Shown here piece by piece: positions 22,241-39,592 of a DNA stretch of 64,000 bases. The position numbers and the translations under genes were made by a program. Location of the stretch: NCBI GenBank assembly GCA_903905455.1, contig CAIVGN010000097.1, forward strand, positions 1 to 64,000, read 5' to 3'. The stretch is from an uncultured Archangium sp. Its GTDB lineage: Bacteria; Myxococcota; Myxococcia; Myxococcales; Myxococcaceae. The notes beneath the pieces were generated by a model. The model worked only from the letters and a program-made list of their open reading frames with translations. It did no database searches and was not told where the DNA came from. Numbering within the stretch: the stretch's first letter is position 1; every line of letters begins with the position of its first letter.

Positions 22241-24076
22241 GTGCGCGCGATTGACTGGGCCCTGTTGTCGACCTTCCTGCCGCTGGCCACGGCGTTGTTG
22301 CTGGTGTTGGTCTCCCCCCTGCGTCGCACCGGCCTGGGAGCGGGCCTGGTGTCCGTGGTCAGCGCGGTGGCGACGTTCGTCGGCGCGGTGATGGTGCTCG
22401 CCAGCCGCTTCGGCGCCGAGGCGGGCGTGGTGCACCGCACCATCCAGTGGTTGCCGCACAGCGCGCTGGGCGGGGTGGCCCACGGGCGGGGCGCCATCGA
22501 GCTGGGCGTTCACGTCGACGGCATCTCGGCCACCATGCTGGTGGTGGTCACCTTCGTCGCGCTCTGCGTGCAGGTGTTCTCCATTGGCTACATGGCCGAG
22601 GAGCCCAAGGCCGACTTCGGGCGCTACTTCACCTGGCAGTCGCTCTTCCTCTTCGCGATGAACTCCCTGGTCATCGCGCCCAACCTGCTGCAGCTCTTCC
22701 TTGGCTGGGAGCTGGTCGGCCTCGTGAGCTACCTGCTCATCGGCTACTGGTGGAAGAAGCCCTCGGCGGCCCGCGCGGCGCTCAAGGCCTTCTGGATCAC
22801 CAAGTTCGCCGACATGGGCCTGCTGGCCGGGCTCATCGTGCTCTTCCTCGCCACCGGCACCTTCGACTGGACGGTGACCACGGCGGCGGCGGGCACGGTG
22901 ACGCTGCTGCTCTTCGTGGCGGTGATGGGCAAGTCCGCCCAGTTCCCGCTGCACATATGGCTGCCGGACGCGATGGAGGGCCCGACGCCGGTCTCCGCGC
23001 TGCTGCACGCGGCGACCATGGTGGCCGCCGGCGTGTTCCTCGTGGTGCGCGCCTTCCCCCTCTTCGAGCAGGCGCCCAACACCCTGACGGTGATGGCCTA
23101 CGTCGGCTCGTTCACCGCGCTCTTCGCCGCGGTGGTGGCGGTGGTGCAGACCGACATCAAGAAGGTGCTCGCCTACAGCACGTGCTCGCAGCTGGGGTAC
23201 ATGGTGTGCGCGCTGGGCGCCGGGAGCCAGGCCGCCGGCTTCTTCCACCTCACCACCCACGCCTTCTTCAAGGCGCTCCTCTTCCTCGCCGCGGGCAGCC
23301 TGATTCACGGCGTGCACTCGAACGAGCTGAGCCACATGGGTGGGCTGCTCAAGAAGATGAAGGTGACGTCCGGGGCCTTCATCATCGGCTCGCTGGCGTT
23401 GGCCGGGGTGCCGGGCCTCGCGGGCTTCTTCTCGAAGGACCTCATTCTCGAGGAGGTGCTGCACCGCGGGCTGTGGGCGCCGCTGGGGGCGCTGCTCGTC
23501 GCCGCGTTCCTCACGGCCTTCTACATGGGCCGGGTGATGTGGGTCGCCTTGCTGGGCGAGCCGTCGGAGCACGCCAAGCACGCCCACGAGTCAGGCCCGT
23601 CGATGTTGGCGCCGCTCATCGGCCTCTCGGTGCTCGCCATCGGCGTGGGCTACTTCGGGGGCACGCTCTCCGGCCTGTACGGGGAGCCGGTGCACTTTCA
23701 CCTGAGCGCCATCGGCATCGTGGCCACGGTGCTGGGGCTCTCGGGCCTGGGAATTTCGTACTGGATGTTCGGGGCGCCGCAGGGTGGCAAGGCGATCCTC
23801 GAGGCCTTCGCCCCGGTCGGTCGCCTCGCGCGCTCGGGCGCGGTGAACGGCTTCTTCGCGTGGAGCTACCGCAGCGTGATGACTCGCGTCGCGGCGGCCA
23901 TTGGTTGGTTCGACCGCTACGTCATCGACGGGCTGATCAACGGCATCGCCTACGGAACGCTCGAGGCGGGGTCGCGGTTGCGGGTCATTCAGACCGGTCG
24001 AGTGCAGGACTACGTCTACGTCGTCGTCGCCGCGATGCTGCTCATCGGGCTGTACGGCGCCTTCTGGGGAAGGTGA
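22241..24076 (+). CDS. nuoL: NADH-quinone oxidoreductase subunit L (antiporter-like)
   Basis: 611 residues from a GTG at 22241, three bases after nuoK. It has the long Mrp/antiporter-like membrane domain with about 15-16 helices and the lateral helix at the C-terminus. Signature stretches: LGWELVGLVSYLLIGYW (helix 5 Glu region), FPLHIWLPDAMEGPTPVSAL, KKVLAYSTCSQLGYM, and HLTTHAFFKALLFLAAGS. It is the distal pump of the membrane arm. Length matches ordinary NuoL. Confidence 0.95.
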   Translation: MRAIDWALLSTFLPLATALLLVLVSPLRRTGLGAGLVSVVSAVATFVGAVMVLASRFGAEAGVVHRTIQWLPHSALGGVAHGRGAIELGVHVDGISATMLVVVTFVALCVQVFSIGYMAEEPKADFGRYFTWQSLFLFAMNSLVIAPNLLQLFLGWELVGLVSYLLIGYWWKKPSAARAALKAFWITKFADMGLLAGLIVLFLATGTFDWTVTTAAAGTVTLLLFVAVMGKSAQFPLHIWLPDAMEGPTPVSALLHAATMVAAGVFLVVRAFPLFEQAPNTLTVMAYVGSFTALFAAVVAVVQTDIKKVLAYSTCSQLGYMVCALGAGSQAAGFFHLTTHAFFKALLFLAAGSLIHGVHSNELSHMGGLLKKMKVTSGAFIIGSLALAGVPGLAGFFSKDLILEEVLHRGLWAPLGALLVAAFLTAFYMGRVMWVALLGEPSEHAKHAHESGPSMLAPLIGLSVLAIGVGYFGGTLSGLYGEPVHFHLSAIGIVATVLGLSGLGISYWMFGAPQGGKAILEAFAPVGRLARSGAVNGFFAWSYRSVMTRVAAAIGWFDRYVIDGLINGIAYGTLEAGSRLRVIQTGRVQDYVYVVVAAMLLIGLYGAFWGR

Positions 24077-27987: not shown

Positions 27988-29292
27988 TCAGCGCGTGCCC
28001 CAGCGCTCGTCGCGCACCGTGACGAGCGCCCACGGCAGGATCCACTGCAGCATCACCACCGAGAAGGCCGCGTAGAGCACGCCGTAGACCCAGCGGAAGC
28101 TCCGCTCGAAGCGCAGGTAGTAGGCCGCCGAGAACACCGCGCCCAGGCCCAGGGCCACGAGGCTGCGCCCCACGGTGTTCATGTTGGTGTCGAAGAGCCG
28201 CGGCAGCTCCATCAGGGCCACGGCCACCAGCACGAAGCGCAGGTTCGACACGAAGAACGTGACGATGGGCATCAGCCGGTTGTCGGTGCGGTAGCGCGTG
28301 AACATGAAGCGCGCGAACGAGAACCCCTCGACGATGTAGCTGCGGTCCCAGCGCAGGAACATGCGCGAGAGCTGGTTGTAGTTGGTGGGCACCAGGGTGT
28401 GGACCACGGCCGTGCGCTGGTAGACGGTGTCGAAGCCCTGGCGCAGCACGATGTTGGTCAGCGCCTGGTCTTCACCGTGGTTGACGGGCCGGCCCAGGAA
28501 GCGCTGGTTCTCCCACTCGTCCATGTACGGAAGGATGATGTCCTTGCGGAAGCTCGAGAGGGCGCCGGGGCAGCAGGCCACCGCGCGGTATGCCGACTGG
28601 GCGGCGCGGCCGTAGTCGAAGGCCAGGGCGAACTGCACCTCCAGCATGCGGCTGATCATCGTGTCGCGGTTGAGCACCGACACCCGGCCGGCCACGGCGC
28701 CGATCTTCGGGTCGGCGAGGAAGGGCGCGACCATCTCGTGCACGGTGTTGGGGTTGATCTCGCTGTCCGAGTCGATGGTCACGAGGATCGAGCCGGTCGC
28801 CGCGCGGAACCCCGCCACCAGGGCCGAGCGCTTGCCGCGGTTGCCGATGAAGCGCACCAGCTTCACCAGGTCGGGGAACTCCCGCCGCAGGTACTGCATG
28901 TGGAAGAAGGTGTCGTCGCGCGAGCCGTCGTCGACGACGATCACCTCGAGCTTGTCCTTGGGGTAGTTGCACGCGGCCACCGAGCGGATGCTGCGGGCCA
29001 CCATGGGCCCCTCGTTGAACGCGGGGATGACCACCGTCACCTTCGGCCACTCCACGCCTTCCGGGGCCTTGAAGACGCGGTAGCGCATCCACAGCAGGCT
29101 CAAGATCGCGGTGTAGATGGCCTGGATGATGGCGATGGCCCCGAAGGGGTGGCTCGCCATGGCCAGCACCTTGGACGACGTGCTCTCGGTGGACCCGTTG
29201 GACCACCCGAGCCACACCAGCGAGACCACCGCGCCGAACAGGGGCGCCGCACCGGCCAGCGTCCCTCCGAATTTTCGCCAGCGCTGTTTCAC
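27988..29292 (-). CDS. Processive-type glycosyltransferase family 2, membrane-bound
   Basis: 434 residues. Two N-terminal membrane helices (about 13-32 and 50-69), a GT-A catalytic domain (85-320), and three or four C-terminal helices give the hyaluronan/chitin synthase (NodC-like) layout. Motifs: VVDDGSRDD (Asp121/122), DSDSEIN (Asp174/176), GEDQAL (Glu274/Asp275, catalytic base region), and MFLRWDRS (311-318) at the QxxRW position, where Met replaces the usual Gln. It polymerises or adds sugar from a UDP donor at the inner membrane. Its start overlaps the stop of the large ATPase gene upstream (ATGA), so the two are translated together. Confidence 0.88.
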
Positions 29293-32200
29293 GTCTTCTT
29301 CCCCTCGGTGAGGATCCTCCGCAGGACTCCGTCAGGCAGCGAGTATGCCTCGGGTGAGGTCATGTCGCCGTGCGCCTCGAGCAACCGAGACTCGGCCATC
29401 AGGCGCACCATCACCGTGCCGGCCTCCTGGGCGCGCCGCTTGAGCTCCGCGGGGGCGAGGTGCGCGGTCAGGCCCGTCTCGATGAAGCGCTGCATCACCT
29501 GGTTCTCGAGCAGCTTCGTCAGCGCCGCCACCGACACTCGACTCTCCTGCGCCAGCGCGCGCAAGAGCAGCCCCGCCGATGTGTCGGCCTGGGCGATCTC
29601 CGACTCCACCCACACGCGCAGGGGAGAACCGCCACGCTCCTCGCGACGGATGGCCTCGGTCGCGCCCTCGATGCCGATGCGCACCGCGCCCAGGGCCCCC
29701 TGGCGCGCGCGGTCGGCGTCGTAGAGCTCGAGCACCGAGGTGCCCAGGCGCCGCAGCAGCAGGGGCACGCCGTGCGAGGCCTTGACCAGCGCCGCCAGCG
29801 CGTCGTCTTCGAAGCGGATGCCCTGGCGCGAACCCAGGCCCCGCATCATGGCGAAGGCCGCGTCGTCGTCGAGGGCCGGCACGCAGATCGAAGGGAAGGC
29901 CCCCATGATCGACTGCCCGCCGAGCGTGGAGAGCGGCGCCCACAGCAGCGGGTGCAGGGCGGCGCAGAGGATCACGCTCACCGAGCTGCCGGCATGGGGC
30001 GACGAGGGCTCCGAGAAGGCGCTGCGCAGGCGGCCGGTGAGGGTGGCCATCACCTCGAGCGCGCGGCCCAGCTTTTCCGGGGGCGCCGAGAGCAGCTGTT
30101 CGACCTCGTCGAGGACCAGCAACATCGGAGGGGGCGGGGTGCCGCTCGAGGTGCCGCAGGCGCTCGAGAGCGCCCGCAACCAGCCGGCCAGCGTCGGCGC
30201 GTCGAGGGCGCCGGTGGGCATCGGGGGCACGGCCGCGGCCGGGTACCGGGCGGTGGCCGAGTCGGACAGGCGCATCACCAGGGTGCGCAAGATGGCCTCG
30301 ACGGCCACGGCCGGGGTCTCTCCGTACGAGACCTCGTGGTGGAAGCCGGCGAGATCGACGTAGGCGGAGGGGCCGTTGGTGCGCCGGGCGACCTCGAGGG
30401 CGAGCGACGACTTGCCGAAGCGCCGCAGGCCGGTGACCACCACCCAGTGGCCCGCGCGGGCCTCGGTGAGCAGGCCGGCGACGAGGCGCTCGCGGTTCCA
30501 GAACTGGCTGGAGCTGCGCACCGGGCCGCGCACCTCGAAGGGGTTGCCGCGCAGGCTGGTGGCCTCGACGAGGTCGAGCAGGTCTTCGTCGCGGGTGGCC
30601 CAGGCCAGGCGCGAGAGCGCCAGCGGGAGCACCTGCACCGCGCGCGTGCCGCCGCGGGCCGCCCAGTCGAGCGTGGCGCGCACGGCGCCGAGATCGGGCA
30701 CCGCGGTGTCGGGGTGGAGCAGGAACACCACCCGCAGGTTCTCGCGCATCGCCATGGCCGCGGCGTGGTTCACGTCGGCCTCGCGCAGCGCCGAAGCGGA
30801 CGGCGAGAGCACGGCGATGGCCTCGGCGCCCCAGCGCTCCCAGGCCGGCGTGTTGGGCAGCTCGAGGGTCAGCACGTCGTGGCGGTCGGGCAGGAGCAGT
30901 CGCAGCGGGTCAGGCGTCGCCTTGAGGCCCAGCGCGTCGAGGCTCTCGCGGATGCTGCGCATGGGGCCGGCGAAGACCCGGCGCGCGCGCCGCAGGCGCA
31001 GGAACCACAGCAACCCGAGGATCGCCAGGCCCACGGCGACGGCGCTGGCGATGCTGATGCGACGGTACCGGTACCAGGTGGTGTCGAGCTGCGCGGTGAG
31101 CTCGCAGTCGTAGCCGGTGCCGGCGCCGCGGCAGGCCTCGCAGCGCTCCCGGGGCATGCCCAGGGCCTCGCAGGCCGGCTCCTGGTTGAGCGTGTGCTGC
31201 ACCCAGGCGCCGTAGAGCTCGGCCTCTTCCATGCGCGACTTCTCCAGCGGCAGCTGGCCGGTGGCGTCGAGGCGCCAGGGCGAGGCGCTGACCGGCTCGC
31301 CCAGGTCCTGCGCGATGGCGGCCAGGGCGGCGAGCGTCTGCTCGAAGCGGCCGTCGGTGCCCGCGCGCTGGTCACAGGCGTGGCGCAGCTGGGTCATCAC
31401 GCTCTCGTTCTCGTCGTCCACCTTCACCTGCTCCTCGGGGGAGTGGGGGAAGATGAGGGCGGTGCCGCTCCACAGCAGGGTGGCGATCTTCTGGCAGACC
31501 TGGGTGTCGGGCGAGGCGTCGGCGGCCAGCGGGGTGTGGGCCCACAGCGCGATGGTGGTCAGCGGCTCCGGGCGCTCCACGCCGCAGCCCTTGGTCTCGA
31601 GGCGCTGGAAGGCGCGCACGGCCCGGCCGCAGCGATCGATGGCGTCGCCTTCGCGCACGTACTGCTGGAACTCGTCGACCAGCGGCAGGACCCGGCCGTC
31701 GGTCTGCTTGGGCGTGGGCAGCCGCGTGGCGACCCACTTGGCGTACGAGGCGTCGCCCTCGGTGTCGGCGAGGTAGCAGAGGAAGAGCTTGCTCTTCGCG
31801 GCGGCCGAGAGCTCGGCGAGCACCGCCTGCTTGTCCTTGGAGCGGCTGGTGGGGAAGTCCTGCAGCCAGGCGCGCACCGTGTCCGGGCTCAGCGCGTCGC
31901 AAGGCGTGGCGTACATCTCCTCGACGCGGCGGCGTACGATGAGCGGGCCGGTGTCGTCGAGCAGCTCGACCAGCTGGCGGGCGCGGCCGCACTCGCTGGA
32001 GTCGGCGCGGTCTTCGCAGTTGGAGATCTCGAGGAACGACAGGGCGACGCGCAGGGCGGCGGTCAACGGGGGGCCGGCGGGGCCCGCGGGCTCGGCGTGC
32101 TCGCCGTTGGCCTCGGTGATGAACCCCTCGGGCAGCGGCCCGCGCGAGTCGAAGAAGGCGTCGATGGCCACGCCGCCCTGGCCCTTGAGGCGGCCCCAGG

Positions 32201-32750
32201 TGTTCGGCGCGGTGAGCCGGAAGGCGGCGATGAGCAGGCGCCGGTTCCACAGCGGCATGCCGGTGCGCGCGCCGAGCAGGCGGCCCAGCCGGCGCTCCGG
32301 GTCGGAGGTGCCCAGCGGCCGGGGCAACACGTCGGAGCTCCCGGTGGCGTAGTCGTCGAGCTGCGTCAGCGACTTGGAGATCGCGAACCACCCGTTGAGC
32401 AGTGCCTGCACCTGGGCCTGGGTGTTGGCCGGAACGCAGGCGCCGACGCCGCGCGAGGTGCCCTGGAGCAACGAGGCGGCCATGGCCGCGGCCTCCTCGC
32501 ACAGCGCGTCCTTCTGGGCGACGCAGGCCTCGACCTTGCCGATGGTGGCGGTGGTCTTGTCGTTGGCGTCCTGCAGCTCGGCTTCGCAGCGATCGCGCGC
32601 GGCCTGGTGGCTCCGCGTGGACTCGTTGCAGGCCGTGAGCGCCCGCTGGGTGGTGGACAGGCGCTGCTCGACTTCGACGCAGCTCACGCCTCCGTCAGTC
32701 GCGGCGAGCGCAGGTGAAGACACGATCAGGAGTGCGAGGAGGTACTTCAT
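29289..32750 (-). CDS. Membrane-spanning AAA/STAND-type ATPase with periplasmic domain
   Basis: 1153 residues from the ATG at 32750, which gives a clear signal peptide (MKYLLALLIVSSPALA). Residues about 20-560 should be periplasmic: helical, with scattered cysteines and a coiled-coil start. A membrane helix follows (about 563-584). The cytoplasmic part (about 600-1153) contains a P-loop, GLRRFGKSS (about 773-781), and a Walker B, MLLVLDEVEQLL (about 876-887), then a winged-helix-like tail, as in prokaryotic ATPases of the STAND/AAA class. An open frame upstream to 33251 is not used because it lies over the divergent sulfatase. The ATP-driven switch plausibly controls the coupled glycosyltransferase. 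Confidence 0.8.
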   Translation of the reverse strand: MKYLLALLIVSSPALAATDGGVSCVEVEQRLSTTQRALTACNESTRSHQAARDRCEAELQDANDKTTATIGKVEACVAQKDALCEEAAAMAASLLQGTSRGVGACVPANTQAQVQALLNGWFAISKSLTQLDDYATGSSDVLPRPLGTSDPERRLGRLLGARTGMPLWNRRLLIAAFRLTAPNTWGRLKGQGGVAIDAFFDSRGPLPEGFITEANGEHAEPAGPAGPPLTAALRVALSFLEISNCEDRADSSECGRARQLVELLDDTGPLIVRRRVEEMYATPCDALSPDTVRAWLQDFPTSRSKDKQAVLAELSAAAKSKLFLCYLADTEGDASYAKWVATRLPTPKQTDGRVLPLVDEFQQYVREGDAIDRCGRAVRAFQRLETKGCGVERPEPLTTIALWAHTPLAADASPDTQVCQKIATLLWSGTALIFPHSPEEQVKVDDENESVMTQLRHACDQRAGTDGRFEQTLAALAAIAQDLGEPVSASPWRLDATGQLPLEKSRMEEAELYGAWVQHTLNQEPACEALGMPRERCEACRGAGTGYDCELTAQLDTTWYRYRRISIASAVAVGLAILGLLWFLRLRRARRVFAGPMRSIRESLDALGLKATPDPLRLLLPDRHDVLTLELPNTPAWERWGAEAIAVLSPSASALREADVNHAAAMAMRENLRVVFLLHPDTAVPDLGAVRATLDWAARGGTRAVQVLPLALSRLAWATRDEDLLDLVEATSLRGNPFEVRGPVRSSSQFWNRERLVAGLLTEARAGHWVVVTGLRRFGKSSLALEVARRTNGPSAYVDLAGFHHEVSYGETPAVAVEAILRTLVMRLSDSATARYPAAAVPPMPTGALDAPTLAGWLRALSSACGTSSGTPPPPMLLVLDEVEQLLSAPPEKLGRALEVMATLTGRLRSAFSEPSSPHAGSSVSVILCAALHPLLWAPLSTLGGQSIMGAFPSICVPALDDDAAFAMMRGLGSRQGIRFEDDALAALVKASHGVPLLLRRLGTSVLELYDADRARQGALGAVRIGIEGATEAIRREERGGSPLRVWVESEIAQADTSAGLLLRALAQESRVSVAALTKLLENQVMQRFIETGLTAHLAPAELKRRAQEAGTVMVRLMAESRLLEAHGDMTSPEAYSLPDGVLRRILTEGKKT

Positions 32751-32829
32751 CGCTGGTGGGACCGTGAAATGCCCTCCTCTGGGCGCGGTGGGAAGTGTGA
32801 AATGGCGCGGGCAGGGTATAGGGGCCCCC
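32751..32829. promoter_or_regulatory. Divergent promoter gap between ATPase and sulfatase genes
   Basis: 79 bases separate the two opposite starts. They must hold both promoters or ribosome sites if the starts are right. I see no confident -35/-10 pairs; the TATA-like GGGTATAGGGG at about 32814-32824 is a candidate -10 region for the plus strand. The closeness suggests co-regulation of the two envelope genes. Confidence 0.3.
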
Positions 32830-34983
32830 GTGGAGTCCTCAGCCGCCCCTACTGCCGGTCTGCGCCGTGGGTTCCTTTCGGGCCTCAGCGCGGTGGCGAT
32901 CCTCTTCGTCGCGGCCTTCCCGTCGCGCCTGTCCCTCGCCATTCGCGGGTGGGGATCGTTCTTCAGTCGGGGCGAAAAGGCCCTGGCCGGCACGCTCCTC
33001 GACCTGTCGGCGGTGGTGCTGGTCATCACCCCCTTCGTGGCCCTGATGACGCTGCTGGTGCCGGTGGTGCTGCGCCGCGCGCGCACGCCCGGCTGGCAGC
33101 GCCTGGGCACGGTGCTGTGGGCCCTGCCGTTCGGCTTCGCGCTGTGGGTGCTCACGGTCCTGGCGCAGGAGGTGAAGTCGGAGCGCGGATCGTTCCCCAC
33201 CATGTTCGACCTCCTCGAGGGCGGCTCCAACGCGTCCTTCGTCGAGGGCACGGTGGGGTTCCTGCGCTACGAGCGCATCTGGGTGCCTGCGTCCGTGGGG
33301 ACCGCGGCGGCGGTGGTGGCGCTGACGCTGCTCTGGCGGTGGAAGGGCACGGCGGCGCTGGGCCGCTGGCGCACCTGGGCCATCGGCATGGTGACCGGCC
33401 TGGGCACCGGGGCCGCCGGGGTGTTCCTGCTGGCGCTGACGCTCTCGGCCCTGGCCAACCGCTTCACCGCCGCCGCCCTGGGAGACCCGCTGACGGGGCT
33501 GGTGGAGAGCACCCTCGATCTCCTGCAGCACCGTGGGCCGGCGACGCCGCGGCAGCTGGTGCTCGACGCCGAGCTCCCCCCGCAGGCCCTGTCCGAGGGC
33601 GTGGCCCTGCTGGGCTGGCCTCCGTCGAAGCCCGGGCCGCACCCGCACGCGCGCCCCCTCGACTTCACCTCCGAGCCGATGACGAAGGACCCCCGGGGCC
33701 GCAAGCTGGTCGCGGCGCTCACCCGTGCCTCGAAGGCCCTGTTTCCCCCGGACGAACCGAACGTCGCGGTCTTTCACCTCTCGCTCGAGGGCTTCCGCGC
33801 CGACGACGTCCACGCGCTCAACCCACTGGCGCCCAAGGACATCGCGCCCTTCACCAGCTCGCTCTACGACGCGGGGGAAGGGGTGCTCACCAGCCGCAAG
33901 ATGTTCCAGGCGGGCGTGCGCACGGCCCACTGCCTGGGGGCGATGACCTGCGGGCTGGGCACGCTGCCCTACAACCTGAGCTTCATCCGCGACCTGCAGC
34001 CGTTCCCCGTGCGCTGCACCTCCGACGTGCTGCACGACGCCGGCTTCGCGCACTCGTTCTTCTACGGCTCCGACGCCACCTTCGACGAGATGCACCGCTA
34101 TTTCTCCGAGCACGGGTACACGAAGCTCGTCACCCAGGCCGAGCTGCCGCAGGACCTGCCCAAGGGCACCTGGGACGGGGTGACCGACTTCGCGGTGTTC
34201 GACCTCGCGGTGAAAGAAGTCGCCGAGGCGGTCAAGACCGGGCCCCAGTTCTCGCTGCTCATGTCGCTGTCGAACCACTCGCCGTTCACCAGCCCGCAGG
34301 ATCTCCCGGCCTTCGTCACCGAGCGCGTCGATCGCGGGCTCGAGACGGCGGTCAACCGGGCGGACGCCGACGATCGCCTGCGGCTGGTGACCTACTCGTA
34401 CACCGACGCCGCGGTGGAGCGGGTCTTCGCGCAGCTCGAGACCCTGGGCATCGCGGAGCGGAGCATCGTGATGCTCATGGCGGATCACTCCACGGGCCAC
34501 GCCTACGTGTGGGGCAAGGAAGATCCGGAGAGTGACGCGGCCAAGTCGCAGATCCCCTTCGCCATCGTGATTCCCCCCGCGTTCCTCGCGCGCGCGGTGG
34601 ACCCGGTGGCGCTCAAGGCGGCCCTGGCTGAGGCGAAGGCGCTGATCGACGAGGCACCGCTTTCACAGAACGACGTGCCCACGCTGCTGCTGGCCCTGCT
34701 CTCGGCGCACCCGGGACTGCGTGCGTTGCCGGCGGAGCAGCGCTGGCACACGCTTGGCGGCCAGGTGACGAGCCCGTACTTCGCGCCCGGAGGAGACCCC
34801 TCGAGCTACATCCTGGGCATCAACGGGGTCAGCGAGCTCTTCACGCTGGACCGCACCGGGGCGCGGGTCGGCAGCTACGAAGACTCGGTGTTCTTGAAGA
34901 CGAGGGCGGATCGCTACCGGGTGACGCCGCGGCTCATTCCCGTCACGGCGGCGCTGATTGAGACGATGAAGTCCGCGAAGTGA
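32830..34983 (+). CDS. LTA-synthase-like membrane sulfatase / phosphoglycerol transferase
   Basis: 717 residues from a GTG at 32830. Four or five membrane helices occupy residues about 17-205, followed by an extracytoplasmic alkaline-phosphatase/sulfatase domain. Family landmarks are FHLSLEGF (metal-binding Glu), GVRTAHCLGAMTCGLGTLP with the likely nucleophile Thr (about 363), SLSNHSPF, and MLMADHSTGHAY (about 548-559; Asp and His metal ligands). These enzymes move phosphoglycerol or phosphoethanolamine groups to envelope glycans. It is divergent from the ATPase/glycosyltransferase pair. The last 41 bases overlap the convergent PIG-L gene. The start could also be further upstream. Confidence 0.85.
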   Translation: MESSAAPTAGLRRGFLSGLSAVAILFVAAFPSRLSLAIRGWGSFFSRGEKALAGTLLDLSAVVLVITPFVALMTLLVPVVLRRARTPGWQRLGTVLWALPFGFALWVLTVLAQEVKSERGSFPTMFDLLEGGSNASFVEGTVGFLRYERIWVPASVGTAAAVVALTLLWRWKGTAALGRWRTWAIGMVTGLGTGAAGVFLLALTLSALANRFTAAALGDPLTGLVESTLDLLQHRGPATPRQLVLDAELPPQALSEGVALLGWPPSKPGPHPHARPLDFTSEPMTKDPRGRKLVAALTRASKALFPPDEPNVAVFHLSLEGFRADDVHALNPLAPKDIAPFTSSLYDAGEGVLTSRKMFQAGVRTAHCLGAMTCGLGTLPYNLSFIRDLQPFPVRCTSDVLHDAGFAHSFFYGSDATFDEMHRYFSEHGYTKLVTQAELPQDLPKGTWDGVTDFAVFDLAVKEVAEAVKTGPQFSLLMSLSNHSPFTSPQDLPAFVTERVDRGLETAVNRADADDRLRLVTYSYTDAAVERVFAQLETLGIAERSIVMLMADHSTGHAYVWGKEDPESDAAKSQIPFAIVIPPAFLARAVDPVALKAALAEAKALIDEAPLSQNDVPTLLLALLSAHPGLRALPAEQRWHTLGGQVTSPYFAPGGDPSSYILGINGVSELFTLDRTGARVGSYEDSVFLKTRADRYRVTPRLIPVTAALIETMKSAK

Positions 34984-35980
34984 GCCGCACCCCGGCGGCC
35001 GCGAAGCCCTCGGGGCCCCACTGGTTCCACTCCTCGAAGGACCCCATCGCCTTCACCCGCTCGGTGGGGCTGATGGCCCTCGAGCCTTCCTGCACCCAGC
35101 GGGGGCCTTCCCTCACGTAGCGCTCGGTAAAGAAGGCCTCCTCGCGGCGAGCGAAGGACGACAGCCAGTCGAGCCGCGGCTGCGTGCCTGCCTGCGAGGT
35201 GTACTTGCCGATGGCGGTGAGCTTGCGCTGCGCGTCGGCCGTGAGGCGCTCGTCGGGGGTGTACGCGGCGAGGGACTTCGGCAGCGGGGGAAGGGGCGCG
35301 TCGGGGGTGAAGTAGTGCGCGCAGTCCGAGGGCCAACAGGGGCCGGCATGCACCACGCCGCGGTGCACCCGGGCGGGCGCCACCGGCACCTGGTCGAGCG
35401 CGCGGCGGAAGTAGACGTAGGTCATCGCGTGATCGGGGTGATCGTCCAGGGCGTGGGCCAGGTACACCTCGTGGGGCGAAAGCCGGGTGAGCAGGGCCAC
35501 GAGATCGCCCACCAGCGCGGTCGACGTCCACTCGGCGGGCTGGCCGGTGCGCCGGGTGTGCTCGTCGAGGCGGCCCGCGCCGCGATCGGCGTAGGTGCCG
35601 GTGCGGGCGATGCACTGCCCGGTCGCGTCGCGGTGCTCCATGGGCGGCAGCGGCTCGGCGCTGAGCTTGGCCAGCGCGCCGTCGGGGTAGCCCAGGAAGT
35701 GCACGTTCTCTTCGCTCACGCCCAGGGTCTTGAGCGCGGCGATGCTCTCGGCCTCGCGCAAGTACCCGTCGCGCTCGCAGGTGTAGTCGCCGTTGGTGAC
35801 GATGATCACCGCCACGCGCTGGCCGGCCTTCACCGCGCGCTCCATCACGCCACCGGCCAACAGCACCTCGTCGTCGGGGTGGGGCGCCACCACGAGCACG
35901 TCGAGGCGATCGATGGTCGGCACGGGCCGCGCGCAGGCACTCAGCAGGGCGAAGGTGACGACGAGACCGCGTGAGGTCAC
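34943..35980 (-). CDS. PIG-L/LmbE-type deacetylase lipoprotein
   Basis: 345 residues. A short signal ends in LLSAC (lipobox, Cys16), so it is probably anchored outside the cytoplasm, unusual for the family. The metal site APHPDDEVLLAGG is at 32-44, and the second metal motif, ALDDHPDHAM, is near 177-186. LmbE-like enzymes remove acetyl groups from N-acetylglucosamine-containing substrates using zinc. The start overlaps the stop of the K+ channel gene (ATGA). Its C-terminus overlaps the sulfatase gene tail-to-tail by 41 bases. Confidence 0.9.
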   Translation of the reverse strand: MTSRGLVVTFALLSACARPVPTIDRLDVLVVAPHPDDEVLLAGGVMERAVKAGQRVAVIIVTNGDYTCERDGYLREAESIAALKTLGVSEENVHFLGYPDGALAKLSAEPLPPMEHRDATGQCIARTGTYADRGAGRLDEHTRRTGQPAEWTSTALVGDLVALLTRLSPHEVYLAHALDDHPDHAMTYVYFRRALDQVPVAPARVHRGVVHAGPCWPSDCAHYFTPDAPLPPLPKSLAAYTPDERLTADAQRKLTAIGKYTSQAGTQPRLDWLSSFARREEAFFTERYVREGPRWVQEGSRAISPTERVKAMGSFEEWNQWGPEGFAAAGVRLTSRTSSSQSAPP

Positions 35981-37008
35981 GGCTGGCTCCGCTCTCCGGT
36001 CACCGCGCGCGCGAGGGCGGCCAGCTGCTCGGAGGTGCCCAGGGACAGCAGGTGATCGCCGGCCACGAGCACGAAGTCGCCGCGCGGGTTGGCGGTCGGC
36101 ACCCCGTCGCGCACGACCGCGAGCACCGCGGCCCCGGTCTTCGCCGCGAGCTGCAGTTGCTCGAGCGGCTGCCCGTCGGCGCCGCGGCCCGGGGCGATCA
36201 CCACGTCTTCGATCGACAGCGAGCGGTTACCCTGGGTCATCGCCGTCTCGAGGAAGTCCACCACCCGGGGGCTGATGAGGAGGTGCGCCAGCCGCCGCCC
36301 GCCGATGGCGTAGGGGCTGATGGCGCGGTTGGCGCCGGCGCGCACCAGCTTGGGCACCGAGGCCTCGTCGACGGCGCGGCTGGCGATGAAGCAGCTCGCG
36401 TTGAGCAGCCGGGCGCTCAGGATCACGTAGAGGTTGGTCGCGTCGCTCGAGGTGGTGGTGATCAGCCCCCGGGCCCGGGTGATGCCCGCGGCGTGCAGCG
36501 TGGCGTCGTCGGTGGCGTCGCCCTTGATGAAGGGGCACTCGAGCTGCGCGGCGATGGCCTCGATCTCGGGGCTGGGGTCGACCAGCAGGAAGGTCGCCCC
36601 CGAAGAGCGGAGCTCGATCGCGGCCTCCCGCCCCACGCGCCCGACCCCTGCCACGATGAAGTGCCCGGTGAGGGCGTCGATGGACTTCTGCATCTTGCGT
36701 CTCCTGCGCGCGGCCCGGACCTGGTCGCTGGCGGCGTACTCGAGCACCACGGTGAAGGTATAGAAGAGGCTGCCGATGCCGCTGCCGGAGATCGCCATGG
36801 TCAACAGGCGGCCCGCGGTGCCCAGCGGGTGCACCTCGGCGAACCCGATGGTGGTGATGGTGATGAAGGTCATGAACAGGGCGTCGAACCAGGTTCCCAC
36901 GGGCTGCCACAGCGCGTGGTAGCCGGCGGCCCCCACGACGTGCGTGAAGAGGAGCAGCAGCGCCGGGACCCTCAACCGTTCCGCGAGCATCTTGCGCTCG
37001 GGCGTCAT
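35977..37008 (-). CDS. Two-helix K+ channel with RCK (TrkA-N/TrkA-C) domain
   Basis: 343 residues from the ATG at 37008 (the open frame extends further upstream without resemblance and overlaps the divergent gene). Two membrane helices (about 13-33 and 68-90) flank a pore loop with the filter TTIGFAEVHP (52-61), a variant of the K+ signature TVGYGD. A basic linker leads to a Rossmann RCK domain, VAGVGRVGREAA (119-130), and a TrkA-C domain (about 260-340). It should be a ligand-gated K+ channel of the inner membrane, MthK-like. It is the first gene of a pair with the PIG-L deacetylase. Confidence 0.88.
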   Translation of the reverse strand: MTPERKMLAERLRVPALLLLFTHVVGAAGYHALWQPVGTWFDALFMTFITITTIGFAEVHPLGTAGRLLTMAISGSGIGSLFYTFTVVLEYAASDQVRAARRRRKMQKSIDALTGHFIVAGVGRVGREAAIELRSSGATFLLVDPSPEIEAIAAQLECPFIKGDATDDATLHAAGITRARGLITTTSSDATNLYVILSARLLNASCFIASRAVDEASVPKLVRAGANRAISPYAIGGRRLAHLLISPRVVDFLETAMTQGNRSLSIEDVVIAPGRGADGQPLEQLQLAAKTGAAVLAVVRDGVPTANPRGDFVLVAGDHLLSLGTSEQLAALARAVTGERSQP

Positions 37009-37060
37009 GATGACGTTCACCGCGCCAGAGAAACACCGATCGAATAGAGACGCGAGCCGC

Positions 37061-37552
37061 GTGGAGCCCTCGACCCTTTCGACCGCTGAGTCCATCGTGC
37101 TCGACGGGGCCAACGGGGTCACGCGCGCCCCCCACGAGCACTTCCCCTCGGCCGGGCTCTCGGGGGGCCTGTTCCTGATCGCCGCGCTGGTCACCGCGGT
37201 GCTGGTGCGCCGGGGCCCGCGGTGGCCGTTGGGGGCGCTCCTCGCCCTGGCCGCGGTGCCCGGGTTGATCCACGTGCTCGTGCTGCGCGCCGATGCGCCC
37301 GCGTCGCGAGGGGCGATGGCGGACACGATCAGCCGCACGCTCGGCGAACTTCGCGCCCGCGCGCCGTGGCCCCAGTCGAGCGTGGTGATCGCCCGCGAAG
37401 ATGACGACGTGCTGTTTCCTTTGACGCGCTACGCGGTGCCTGGGCGGCTTGCGCCCACCGGCCCGGCGATCGAGCTCGAGACGCGCGGCGCGCTGCTGGG
37501 CCAGCCCTGCCGCACCGAAGGCGCTCGGGTGACCTGCGGGGCCGGACCATGA
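37061..37552 (+). CDS. Hypothetical small membrane protein
   Basis: 163 residues from a GTG at 37061, in frame and 52 bases from the divergent channel start; a longer version would overlap the channel gene. Two membrane helices (about 30-49 and 54-72) are followed by a soluble domain of about 90 residues (ISRTLGELRARAPWPQSS, EDDDVLFPLTRYAVPG). No known family. It overlaps the next membrane protein gene by 4 bases (ATGA), so they form a unit; it may be an accessory of that putative glycosyltransferase. Confidence 0.6.
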   Translation: MEPSTLSTAESIVLDGANGVTRAPHEHFPSAGLSGGLFLIAALVTAVLVRRGPRWPLGALLALAAVPGLIHVLVLRADAPASRGAMADTISRTLGELRARAPWPQSSVVIAREDDDVLFPLTRYAVPGRLAPTGPAIELETRGALLGQPCRTEGARVTCGAGP

Positions 37553-38781
37553 TCGCAATCGTCGGAGCCCTCGTGGTGCACCTGCTCGGCGGGGCCGCCC
37601 GCCACCTCGCGACGCGGTGCGGGTTGGCGGTCGCGCTCCGATCACCGACGACCTTCTTCTTCGGCCTCGCGGTGCTCTACGCGTTCTCGCTGGGGCCGGC
37701 GGGGCTCGTGGTGTTGGCGGCGCTGGGCATCGGCGTCTCGCTCGGTGTGCGTCCCGAACCCGCGGTGGGCCTCTCGCCGCGGGCGGGGCTGGGGTTGGCG
37801 GGGCTCGCCGCGGTGGTGCTCGCGCGGCCCTGGGTGCCCACGCAGTGGGACGAGTTCGTGTGGCTGGCCAAGGCGCGCTTCGCCTCGTTGGGCTTCGCCG
37901 CGGGCGTGCAGGCCGCGCTCGACCCCGCGCAGAAGCTGGTGCCCCCCGGCTACCCGCCGTTGTGGCCCCTGGCCGTGGGCTGGGTGTCGCTGGGCGTCGA
38001 CGCGCTGGATGCGCACGTGGTCGCCGCGAGCCTGCTGGTGGTGCTCTGCGTGGCGGTGGCGGTCGAGTCGTGGAAGGCGTCGCTGGGTTCAGTGCCGCGC
38101 TGGAGCCTGCTGCTCCTCGTCGCCGCGCCTCTCGTGCTGGTGCACCTTCGCTCGACCTACGTCGACCTGCCCATCGGGTTGCTCGGGCTCGCCTTGCTGG
38201 GCCAGCTCCTGCAGGGGTCCGACCGTCCTGCCCCGGCGGCCCTCGCGCTCGCGGTCACGCTGGCGGGCTTCAAAGACGAAGGCCTCGCGCACGTGCTCGC
38301 CGCGACCGCGGCTGCCTGGTTCCTCTCGCCACGCCTCCAGTCCTGGAGGCTCGCCGTTCCTGCGCTCGTGGCCCTGCTCACCTTTGCCACCTGGCGGGTG
38401 CTCGTACGGCTCAGCGGCGTCGCGCTCTTCGATCACGCGCTGGGTCTTCCCCAGTGGGACTGGGCGCCGCGGTTCCTGCAACTGCTGGTGTTGCACGCCA
38501 GCGATCTGCCCTCGTGGGGTGTCTTCTGGGCGGTGGTGCTCGGCGTTCTCTTCACCAGGCCTGGGTCGTCATCGGCCCGAGCCCTGCGCTTCATGTTCGC
38601 CTTCAACCTCTGCTTCACGGCGGCCGCGCTGCTCAGCGGTCCGGAGCGGGTTCGTGTGTTCGCGGAGAACGGCACGTTGATCAATCGGTTGCTGGTTCAG
38701 CTGTGGCCAGGTGCCCTCGTGCTGGTGTTCAGCACGTTGCGCCCGACGACCACGTCAGCCATCAGTTCCCGAGGAGCTTGA
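37549..38781 (+). CDS. Polytopic membrane protein, probable GT-C type glycosyltransferase
   Basis: 410 residues with about 9-11 membrane helices. The first large loop carries WDEFVWLAKARF and VPPGYPPLWPL; the following regions have STYVDLPIGLLGL and FKDEGLAH. An acidic pair in the first loop and such aromatic/Pro motifs are the pattern of GT-C enzymes that use polyprenyl-phosphate sugars (ArnT/PMT-like). The assignment rests on pattern only. It is coupled to the hypothetical gene upstream, and its last 20 bases overlap the convergent flagellin gene. Confidence 0.65.
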   Translation: MIAIVGALVVHLLGGAARHLATRCGLAVALRSPTTFFFGLAVLYAFSLGPAGLVVLAALGIGVSLGVRPEPAVGLSPRAGLGLAGLAAVVLARPWVPTQWDEFVWLAKARFASLGFAAGVQAALDPAQKLVPPGYPPLWPLAVGWVSLGVDALDAHVVAASLLVVLCVAVAVESWKASLGSVPRWSLLLLVAAPLVLVHLRSTYVDLPIGLLGLALLGQLLQGSDRPAPAALALAVTLAGFKDEGLAHVLAATAAAWFLSPRLQSWRLAVPALVALLTFATWRVLVRLSGVALFDHALGLPQWDWAPRFLQLLVLHASDLPSWGVFWAVVLGVLFTRPGSSSARALRFMFAFNLCFTAAALLSGPERVRVFAENGTLINRLLVQLWPGALVLVFSTLRPTTTSAISSRGA

Positions 38782-39592
38782 GGGCGATCTGCGGGGCCTG
38801 GTTGGCCTGGGCGAGGACCGAGACGCCGGCCTGCATCATCACCTGGGTGCGCGCCATCTTGGACGTCTCTTCGGCCACGTCGACGTCGCGGATGCGGCTG
38901 TTGGCGGCCGAGAGCGACTCCGCGGAGGTCTGGATGGTCTGGATGACCGAGCTGAGGCGGTTGCCGGCGGCGCCGAAGCCCGAGCGGGCGAGCGAGACGG
39001 CGCTGAGGCCGGCGTCGATGACGCTCAAGGCAGCCTGGGAAGCGGCCTGGGTCGAGAAGTCCAGGGCGCTCACGCCGAGGGTCGCGGCCGTCGCGTCGAC
39101 GGTGGTGACGGCGATCTGGTCGTTGGCCGCCACGTTGCGGATGCCGACCTGGAAGGTGAGCGTGGTCGCCGCAGAGTTGAGGAGCGCCTGGCCGTTGAAC
39201 TCGGCCGCGTTCGCGATGCGGTTGATTTCCGTGATCAGCGCCGAGTTCTCAGTCTGGATGTAGCCGCGCTCGGTGTTGCCCACGCCGCTGGACGCCGACT
39301 GCATGGCCAGTTCGCGCATGCGGGTGAGGAGCTCGGTGGTCTGGTTCAGGTTCGCCTCGGCCGTCTGGATGAGCGACTGGGCGTCCATGGAGTTGCGGTT
39401 GGCCTGGTTGAACGACCGGATCTGGGCGCCGAGGTTGACCGAGATGCCGAGGCCGGCCGCGTCGTCACCGGCCTGCGTGATGCGGAAGCCCGAGGAGAGC
39501 TTGGCGAAGCTGCTCTCGAGCATCTGGCCCGAGTTGAAGAGGTTGCGCTGGGCGTTGAGGGAACCGACGTTGGTGCGGATTGAGAACGACAT
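38762..39592 (-). CDS. fliC: Flagellin
   Basis: 276 residues, short but complete. The N-terminal D0/D1 segment (SIRTNVGSLNAQRNL, SSFAKLSSGFRITQAGDDAAG) and the C-terminal one (GAAGNRLSSVIQTIQTSAES, SRIRDVDVAEETSKMARTQ, QANQAPQIALKLLGN) are textbook. The central variable region is only about 70 residues, giving a minimal filament protein. GGAGG lies upstream of the ATG at 39592. No other flagellar or export gene is in the window, so it depends on a machinery encoded elsewhere or is a relic. Two 13-bp direct repeats lie upstream. Confidence 0.96.
   Translation of the reverse strand: MSFSIRTNVGSLNAQRNLFNSGQMLESSFAKLSSGFRITQAGDDAAGLGISVNLGAQIRSFNQANRNSMDAQSLIQTAEANLNQTTELLTRMRELAMQSASSGVGNTERGYIQTENSALITEINRIANAAEFNGQALLNSAATTLTFQVGIRNVAANDQIAVTTVDATAATLGVSALDFSTQAASQAALSVIDAGLSAVSLARSGFGAAGNRLSSVIQTIQTSAESLSAANSRIRDVDVAEETSKMARTQVMMQAGVSVLAQANQAPQIALKLLGN

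Follow-up and report, generated by a model that had tools for sequence, protein, structure and literature searches.

The 64,000-nucleotide stretch of DNA analysed here (the window) forms the start of a 184.6 kb contig, CAIVGN010000097.1, from the 8.6 Mb genome of an uncultured Archangium sp. (GCA_903905455.1). Its subject of interest is a gene for a 1153-residue transmembrane STAND/archaeal-type ATPase (29289-32750, reverse strand), termed the receptor below, which overlaps a gene for a glycosyltransferase family 2 (GT2) membrane enzyme and lies divergent to a gene for a lipoteichoic acid (LTA) synthase-like transferase. The gene set of the cluster, which comprises a predicted synthase, a deacetylase and decorating enzymes, points to an envelope glycan that is first synthesised and then de-acetylated and decorated, and the genes probably constitute one envelope-glycan locus. 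Regulation of the adjacent synthase by the STAND protein, which is deduced entirely from linkage and architecture, is put forward more tentatively, as a possibility at somewhat less than even odds. The same reserve attaches to the explanation taken as a whole, namely a cell-envelope glycan locus under the control of a transmembrane STAND-type ATP switch, the switch being suggested by the placement of the receptor between periplasm and ATPase.

All three open reading frames were found at the positions given by a first-pass annotation of the window, which had described this locus composition: the GT2 gene (27988-29292, reverse strand, 434 residues), the gene for the ATPase protein, and that for the sulfatase-fold enzyme (32830-34983, forward strand, 717 residues from a GTG start). 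The 79-base divergent gap that it had reported was measured also (32751-32829), but the overlap between the ATPase and synthase genes, given there as ATGA, reads GTGA, the synthase start codon being GTG.

Domain architecture of the receptor

Residues 746-1153 of the receptor (29292-30515, reverse strand) comprise an ATPase module of the STAND/archaeal type followed by a winged helix, with a P-loop, GLRRFGKS, at residues 774-781. The Pfam match of the protein was to AAA_16 (1.4e-6; 29.3 bits, below the 32.6-bit cut-off). Structural comparison of this module retrieved 2qen (Z 17.0, 297 residues, root-mean-square deviation (rmsd) 4.3), 2fna (Z 15.0), the plant NLR 7dfv (Z 14.9) and CED-4 (Z 12.8), with the C-terminal, winged-helix helices falling inside the matched range of residues 746-1149; the comparison list obtained with the whole model (VIA) mainly covers residues 746-1153. 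The P-loop lysine (GKS) and the Walker B DE are invariant in 18 aligned rows, as are G994 and P996 of a G-V-P motif, a GxP motif and then a winged helix being expected features of STAND/archaeal ATPases. Fold, P-loop, Walker B DE, G-V-P motif and winged helix are thus shared with archaeal Walker ATPases and STAND regulators (2qen, 2fna, the NB-ARC module of NLRs, CED-4), whereas the membrane anchor and the N-terminal periplasmic domain set the receptor apart from them, as does the absence of a C-terminal, superstructure-forming repeat sensor, since the protein ends after the winged helix. Such sensors are usual in STAND proteins, if not universal.

Hydropathy analysis of the ATPase protein showed a hydrophobic stretch at the N-terminus and a single membrane helix, at residues 565-583 (31002-31058, reverse strand), the latter falling within a single modelled helix that spans residues 547-606. 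Residues 20-562 (31065-32693, reverse strand) are helical in the structure model, with a long helix at residues 25-95, and contain 10 cysteines that are invariant in 17 rows; together with the signal-like N-terminus, these cysteines fit a disulfide-bonded periplasmic domain of predicted topology. The first-pass description of a 1153-residue protein in which one membrane helix joins a periplasmic domain to a P-loop ATPase therefore agrees with both the hydropathy and the fold matches. Mean column identity is highest in the ATPase module (78%), followed by the domain between membrane and ATPase (75%) and the periplasmic domain (58%). Profile searches of the PDB with the whole protein and with its periplasmic, intervening and ATPase parts returned nothing significant, and the whole-receptor profile had no match among PDB sequences at E 0.1.

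The domain between membrane and ATPase, which the first-pass annotation overlooked, spans approximately residues 592-735 (30546-30977, reverse strand) and, as judged from its model, has a restriction-endonuclease-like fold. Residues 592-745, when folded alone (pLDDT 86.4, pTM 0.83), superimpose on the FokI cleavage domain with a Z-score of 10.3 (rmsd 2.6 Å, 129 aligned residues) and on BspD6I (Z 10.2), AF1548 (Z 9.4) and HindIII (Z 8.6), while the top Foldseek match was RPB5 (E 5.6e-4). The fold is therefore of the FokI/RPB5 type, but in contrast to FokI and other PD-(D/E)xK nucleases, no (D/E)xK signature is present on the third strand in any of 19 rows (residues 46-61 of the domain alignment). 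The domain is thus presumably no nuclease, and a nuclease function was rejected, with the caveat that a migrated active site is possible. Separately, genomes of the same genus encode archaeal-type ATPases of 517-534 residues (L021-L023) with a C-terminal stretch that, by eye, resembles an intact nuclease motif, the domain order being reversed relative to that of the receptor.

In placing a nuclease-fold domain N-terminal to a STAND ATPase, the receptor resembles the Avs proteins in layout, and Avs3 was among the Foldseek matches (8dgc, E 1e-4). An anti-phage STAND system, in which the periplasmic domain would detect phage entry and the nuclease fold or an altered glycan would stop infection, is nevertheless a very improbable account of the locus, given the lack of (D/E)xK in all 19 rows. 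Additionally, PADLOC models gave weak matches only (best E 0.025, none below E 0.02), searches of 50,697 phage records and of 72,556 plasmid records gave no match, and the neighbouring genes are housekeeping or envelope genes.

The synthase and the putative glycan-modifying enzymes

The GT2 protein matches the Pfam families Glyco_tranf_2_3 (7.9e-30), Chitin_synth_2 (9.7e-12) and Glyco_transf_21 (1.3e-11), in keeping with its first-pass description as a chitin/hyaluronan-synthase-like enzyme. Its closest NCBIfam model is NodC (1.1e-55), at 189 bits against an equivalog cut-off of 550 bits, and among proteins of solved structure hyaluronan synthases come closest, aligning over residues 153-433. 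In common with NodC and the class I hyaluronan synthases, the enzyme has the DDG, DxD, GED, R-W and WGTR motifs; it differs from them in its far sub-cut-off NodC score, in its genetic tie to a STAND ATPase and in the QxxRW motif, where glutamine is replaced by methionine in 13 of 13 rows, an alteration missed by the first-pass annotation. In hyaluronan synthase, the arginine and tryptophan of QxxRW are described as contacting the diphosphate and the acceptor, and a role described as essential or pivotal is assigned both to these residues and to the WGTR loop (PMC11750622); in NodC, the motif as a whole has been shown to be indispensable (PMC4132801). With methionine in place of glutamine, polymer synthesis by the GT2 enzyme is less than certain, as is the chain length of its product.

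The methionine, the Glyco_transf_21 match and the proximity to NodC, the products of which are tri- to pentasaccharides (PMC4132801), would all suit a single-addition or short-chain transferase, supplying for example a lipid-linked or short oligosaccharide to the GT-C-like enzyme described below. A precedent may be the streptococcal GacI/J/L/H module, in which a phosphoglycerol transferase accompanies a lipid-linked sugar and a membrane transferase (PMC8327497). Retention of the arginine and tryptophan of QxxRW and of the C-terminal WGTR, to which the hyaluronan synthase alignment extends, argues for a polymerising synthase instead, and the short-chain alternative is considered rather unlikely.

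Each of the nine GT2 rows drawn from receptor-bearing genomes carries the C-terminal sequence T(V/I)RDERWGT, which none of the four rows from receptor-less genomes has. Of the four less related GT2 genes in receptor-less genomes (L070-L073), two have a sugar epimerase or GT28 gene nearby and the other two a trypsin/PDZ protease gene. Control of the synthase by cyclic-di-GMP via a PilZ domain was rejected, no PilZ match being found at E 1 in the receptor, GT2 or transferase.

The transferase encoded on the opposite strand was described in the first-pass annotation as LTA-synthase-like, and this description stands. A sulfatase-fold domain (Pfam Sulfatase, 9.4e-23) lies behind predicted membrane helices and matches the LtaS and VP1736 structures, while NCBIfam scores are low for both LtaS (2e-07, 30 of 970 bits) and OpgB (16.6 bits versus 574). 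The Thr, His and Asp-His positions fall within the phmmer alignment to LtaS structures, and E320, T365, H483 and D552-H553 are intact in 10 of 10 rows, one of which is a paralogue from the same genome; we take the corresponding LtaS residues to be catalytic (Glu, Thr nucleophile, His, and Asp-His metal site). By its membrane helices, sulfatase fold and metal and nucleophile residues, the protein is best described as an LtaS/OpgB-like enzyme. The paralogous gene, the product of which is 55% identical, is located by an SNF2 helicase gene (L034:12014-14149, reverse strand).

Three further cluster genes escaped the first-pass annotation. The first (34943-35980, reverse strand) encodes a 345-residue PIG-L/LmbE-type de-N-acetylase (PF02585, 4.1e-26; 92.4 bits versus a cut-off of 28.2) with a lipoprotein-like N-terminus, in which a lipobox-like cysteine was read by eye in five of five cluster members. 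The second (36944-37552, forward strand) encodes a small membrane protein in which hydropathy shows two hydrophobic helices; its true start is probably downstream, and it is conserved beside the third gene (37549-38781, forward strand), the ATG of which overlaps the preceding stop codon. The 410-residue product of this third gene is a polytopic, GT-C-like membrane protein with no Pfam match and a weak, sub-cut-off match to NF047510 (1e-4, 21 of 100 bits). It was found in nine of nine receptor-bearing genomes of the window's family among the relatives searched, and at four loci outside the family a different GT-C-like gene lies near the receptor gene (L065, L066, L068, L069). A TrkA-type potassium channel gene (35977-37338, reverse strand) also lies within the cluster.

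Two neighbouring genes deserve comment in their own right. A flagellin gene (38762-39592, reverse strand) lies tail to tail with the GT-C-like gene, an arrangement seen in four genomes of the genus (also L024, L025/L062 and L175), although cultured myxobacteria of the family are regarded as non-flagellated. An NADH dehydrogenase subunit gene near the locus (22241-24076) has a match at 76% identity only in genome G022, the other eight matches being at 57% or less, and possibly reflects horizontal origin or replacement. Use of NuoL as a species marker was dropped since the gene is patchy in relatives.

Linkage and co-occurrence in relatives

Among 195 Myxococcota genomes surveyed, receptor orthologues were found in 18, comprising 15 in the window's family and three outside it. 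Searched for separately, the periplasmic domain turned up in 18 genomes, and the nuclease-fold domain in this same set and, as a marginal match (6.5e-4), in one more. Orthologues in other genera, at 40-91% identity, retain the genes and much of their arrangement, so that the arrangement exceeds chance. Linkage of the three genes in relatives had been set beforehand as the refuting test, and the locus withstood it for the ATPase-GT2 pair and, in part, for the transferase. A GT2 orthologue (at least 60% identity) is present in 18 of 18 receptor genomes, and the two genes are neighbours, within approximately 1.2 kb, in 14 of them (12 co-directional, two convergent). The convergent orientation, seen in G031 and G081 and also at L065 and L068, indicates that the neighbourhood survives inversion. 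Similarly, GT2 lies within the fetched flank at 14 of 19 named receptor loci, most of which overlap the 18-genome set; all 19 are from metagenome-assembled genomes (Archangium sp., Myxococcaceae, Myxococcales and one Polyangiaceae). Linkage of the transferase held inside the family, where all 15 bearers have the gene and seven (G000-G005, G023) have it directly next to the receptor gene in divergent orientation, but failed outside it, where none of three bearers has it. In two further family bearers (G158, G160) the transferase gene lies beyond GT2, and it therefore belongs to the same cluster in nine of 15.

The tight pairing with one GT2, in 18 of 18 genomes, would also be expected if the ATPase protein were a working part of glycan assembly, akin to a co-polymerase that governs chain length or links synthesis with export at each cycle. 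The long helix at residues 25-95, the helical periplasmic domain and the cytoplasmic P-loop fit such a role, and co-polymerases matter in Myxococcus xanthus exopolysaccharide synthesis (PMC12004946). The cytoplasmic part, on the other hand, matches STAND/archaeal ATPases and NLRs, which is a switch fold rather than that of the bacterial tyrosine (BY) kinases. Polysaccharide co-polymerases have two membrane helices, whereas the receptor has one, and GT2 enzymes of the synthase type extrude their own product; a co-polymerase function is accordingly judged unlikely.

Joint occurrence was observed directly in 24 family genomes, nine of which have receptor, GT2, transferase and GT-C-like genes while 15 have none of them. 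The PIG-L deacetylase is present in eight of the nine, the sole genome lacking it being 79% complete, and in six further family receptor genomes both GT2 and transferase are present throughout (6/6 each). A tree of rpoB could be drawn with 19 of the 24 family genomes, since three had no rpoB match and the fragments of G014 and G018 were left out; it contains only five bearers, one with a partial rpoB, and several forks are weak. On this tree the bearers do not form one clade, with four changes on the best tree and at least two forced by supported branches, and the bearer label is no more clustered than chance (143 of 500 shuffles as low). Taken with the joint presence and absence, this indicates that the genes have been acquired or lost as a set, more than once. 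Chance neighbourhood was rejected on the same grounds.

Certain observations weigh against one jointly working locus under a receptor switch. Receptor and GT2 genes are on separate contigs in four of 18 genomes (G036, G155, G157, G159); the transferase is on a different contig from the receptor in six of 15 family bearers (G009, G010, G155, G156, G157, G159) and absent from all three bearers outside the family. To these may be added the methionine in QxxRW and the whole-receptor model, whose pTM of 0.40 (pLDDT 76.7) leaves the domain arrangement uncertain. Across 12 genomes the three proteins show correlated distances (r 0.89-0.94), but shared ancestry alone suffices for this and such mirror-tree correlations were not counted as evidence. 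In G157 the transferase and GT2 are on one contig. Near the unlinked GT2 gene of G036 (L074), two genes lacking Pfam matches encode no membrane helix and do not resemble the cluster genes, and in G159 the receptor gene is split over two frames (L059:8001-11386, G159:C583), as a pseudogene or an assembly error in a draft genome.

The pattern could feasibly arise from two independent modules acting on different glycans, one of receptor and GT2, the other of the LTA-synthase-like, PIG-L, small membrane and GT-C-like proteins. Intact second modules on another contig in G009 and G156 (L075, L169), a second module also on another contig in G010 (L076) and the three bearers devoid of the transferase are what independence would predict. 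Both modules are, however, jointly present or absent in 24 of 24 family genomes even though the bearers are not one clade, and independence is therefore considered improbable.

A possible outside-in switch for glycan synthesis

In the favoured reading, a single locus with the receptor as switch, the disulfide-rich periplasmic domain would sense the state of the envelope or a ligand, and the membrane helix, continuing into the first helix of the inactive endonuclease-fold domain, would relay the signal to the STAND ATPase. Nucleotide exchange and self-assembly of the ATPase, through a presumed contact with the adjacent GT2, would then activate, or perhaps restrain, an enzyme that may synthesise and extrude a glycan of the N-acetylglucosamine (GlcNAc) type. 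Within the window's family, the PIG-L lipoprotein would strip acetyl groups from this glycan, the GT-C-like protein and its two-helix partner would attach side sugars, and the LTA-synthase-like enzyme would attach phosphoglycerol, all of these being predicted substrates. The first-pass annotation had likewise proposed envelope sensing, gating of polysaccharide production and modification of the product by the transferase, all three of which stand here as predictions. A more specific proposal, that an immune-type STAND ATPase with its dead nuclease domain as a relay on the membrane helix was recruited as an ATP-dependent switch by which a periplasmic signal turns the synthase on, is speculative and somewhat doubtful.

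The first-pass annotation had stated that it was aware of no system of this composition. For the enzymes this requires amendment, the pairing of a synthase with a phosphoglycerol transferase being of a known kind (PMC10237404, PMC8327497). The OpgH/OpgB system of osmoregulated periplasmic glucans and the proposed cyclic glucan system of pseudomonads likewise combine a GT2 synthase with a sulfatase-fold phosphoglycerol transferase, but here the GT2 is of another class and the OpgB model scores only 16.6 of 574 bits; the accessible accounts of those systems mention neither a STAND ATPase nor a deacetylase. The streptococcal GacI/GacJ/GacL/GacH module, likened here by description only, resembles the locus in combining a phosphoglycerol transferase with a membrane transferase, which act on GlcNAc, but is Gram-positive, with undecaprenyl-linked GlcNAc, and no STAND ATPase is mentioned in the part of its description available. 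For the receptor the statement stands, in that a search of the open-access literature (PubMed Central) found no STAND ATPase described with a glycan synthase. Since each enzyme is near a known class and the receptor architecture was not found described, the locus is, as far as these searches go, a new combination of known parts.

STAND ATPases are mostly known as cytoplasmic regulators and as immune receptors with killing or cutting effectors. If the proposed scheme is correct, a membrane-anchored STAND protein with a disabled nuclease fold would exemplify outside-in control of the cell surface, and the synthase would be controlled by neither cyclic-di-GMP nor a tyrosine kinase. Myxobacteria depend on surface polysaccharides for group behaviour, and the locus supplies a defined gene set in a lineage for which every named relative found here is a metagenome-assembled genome.

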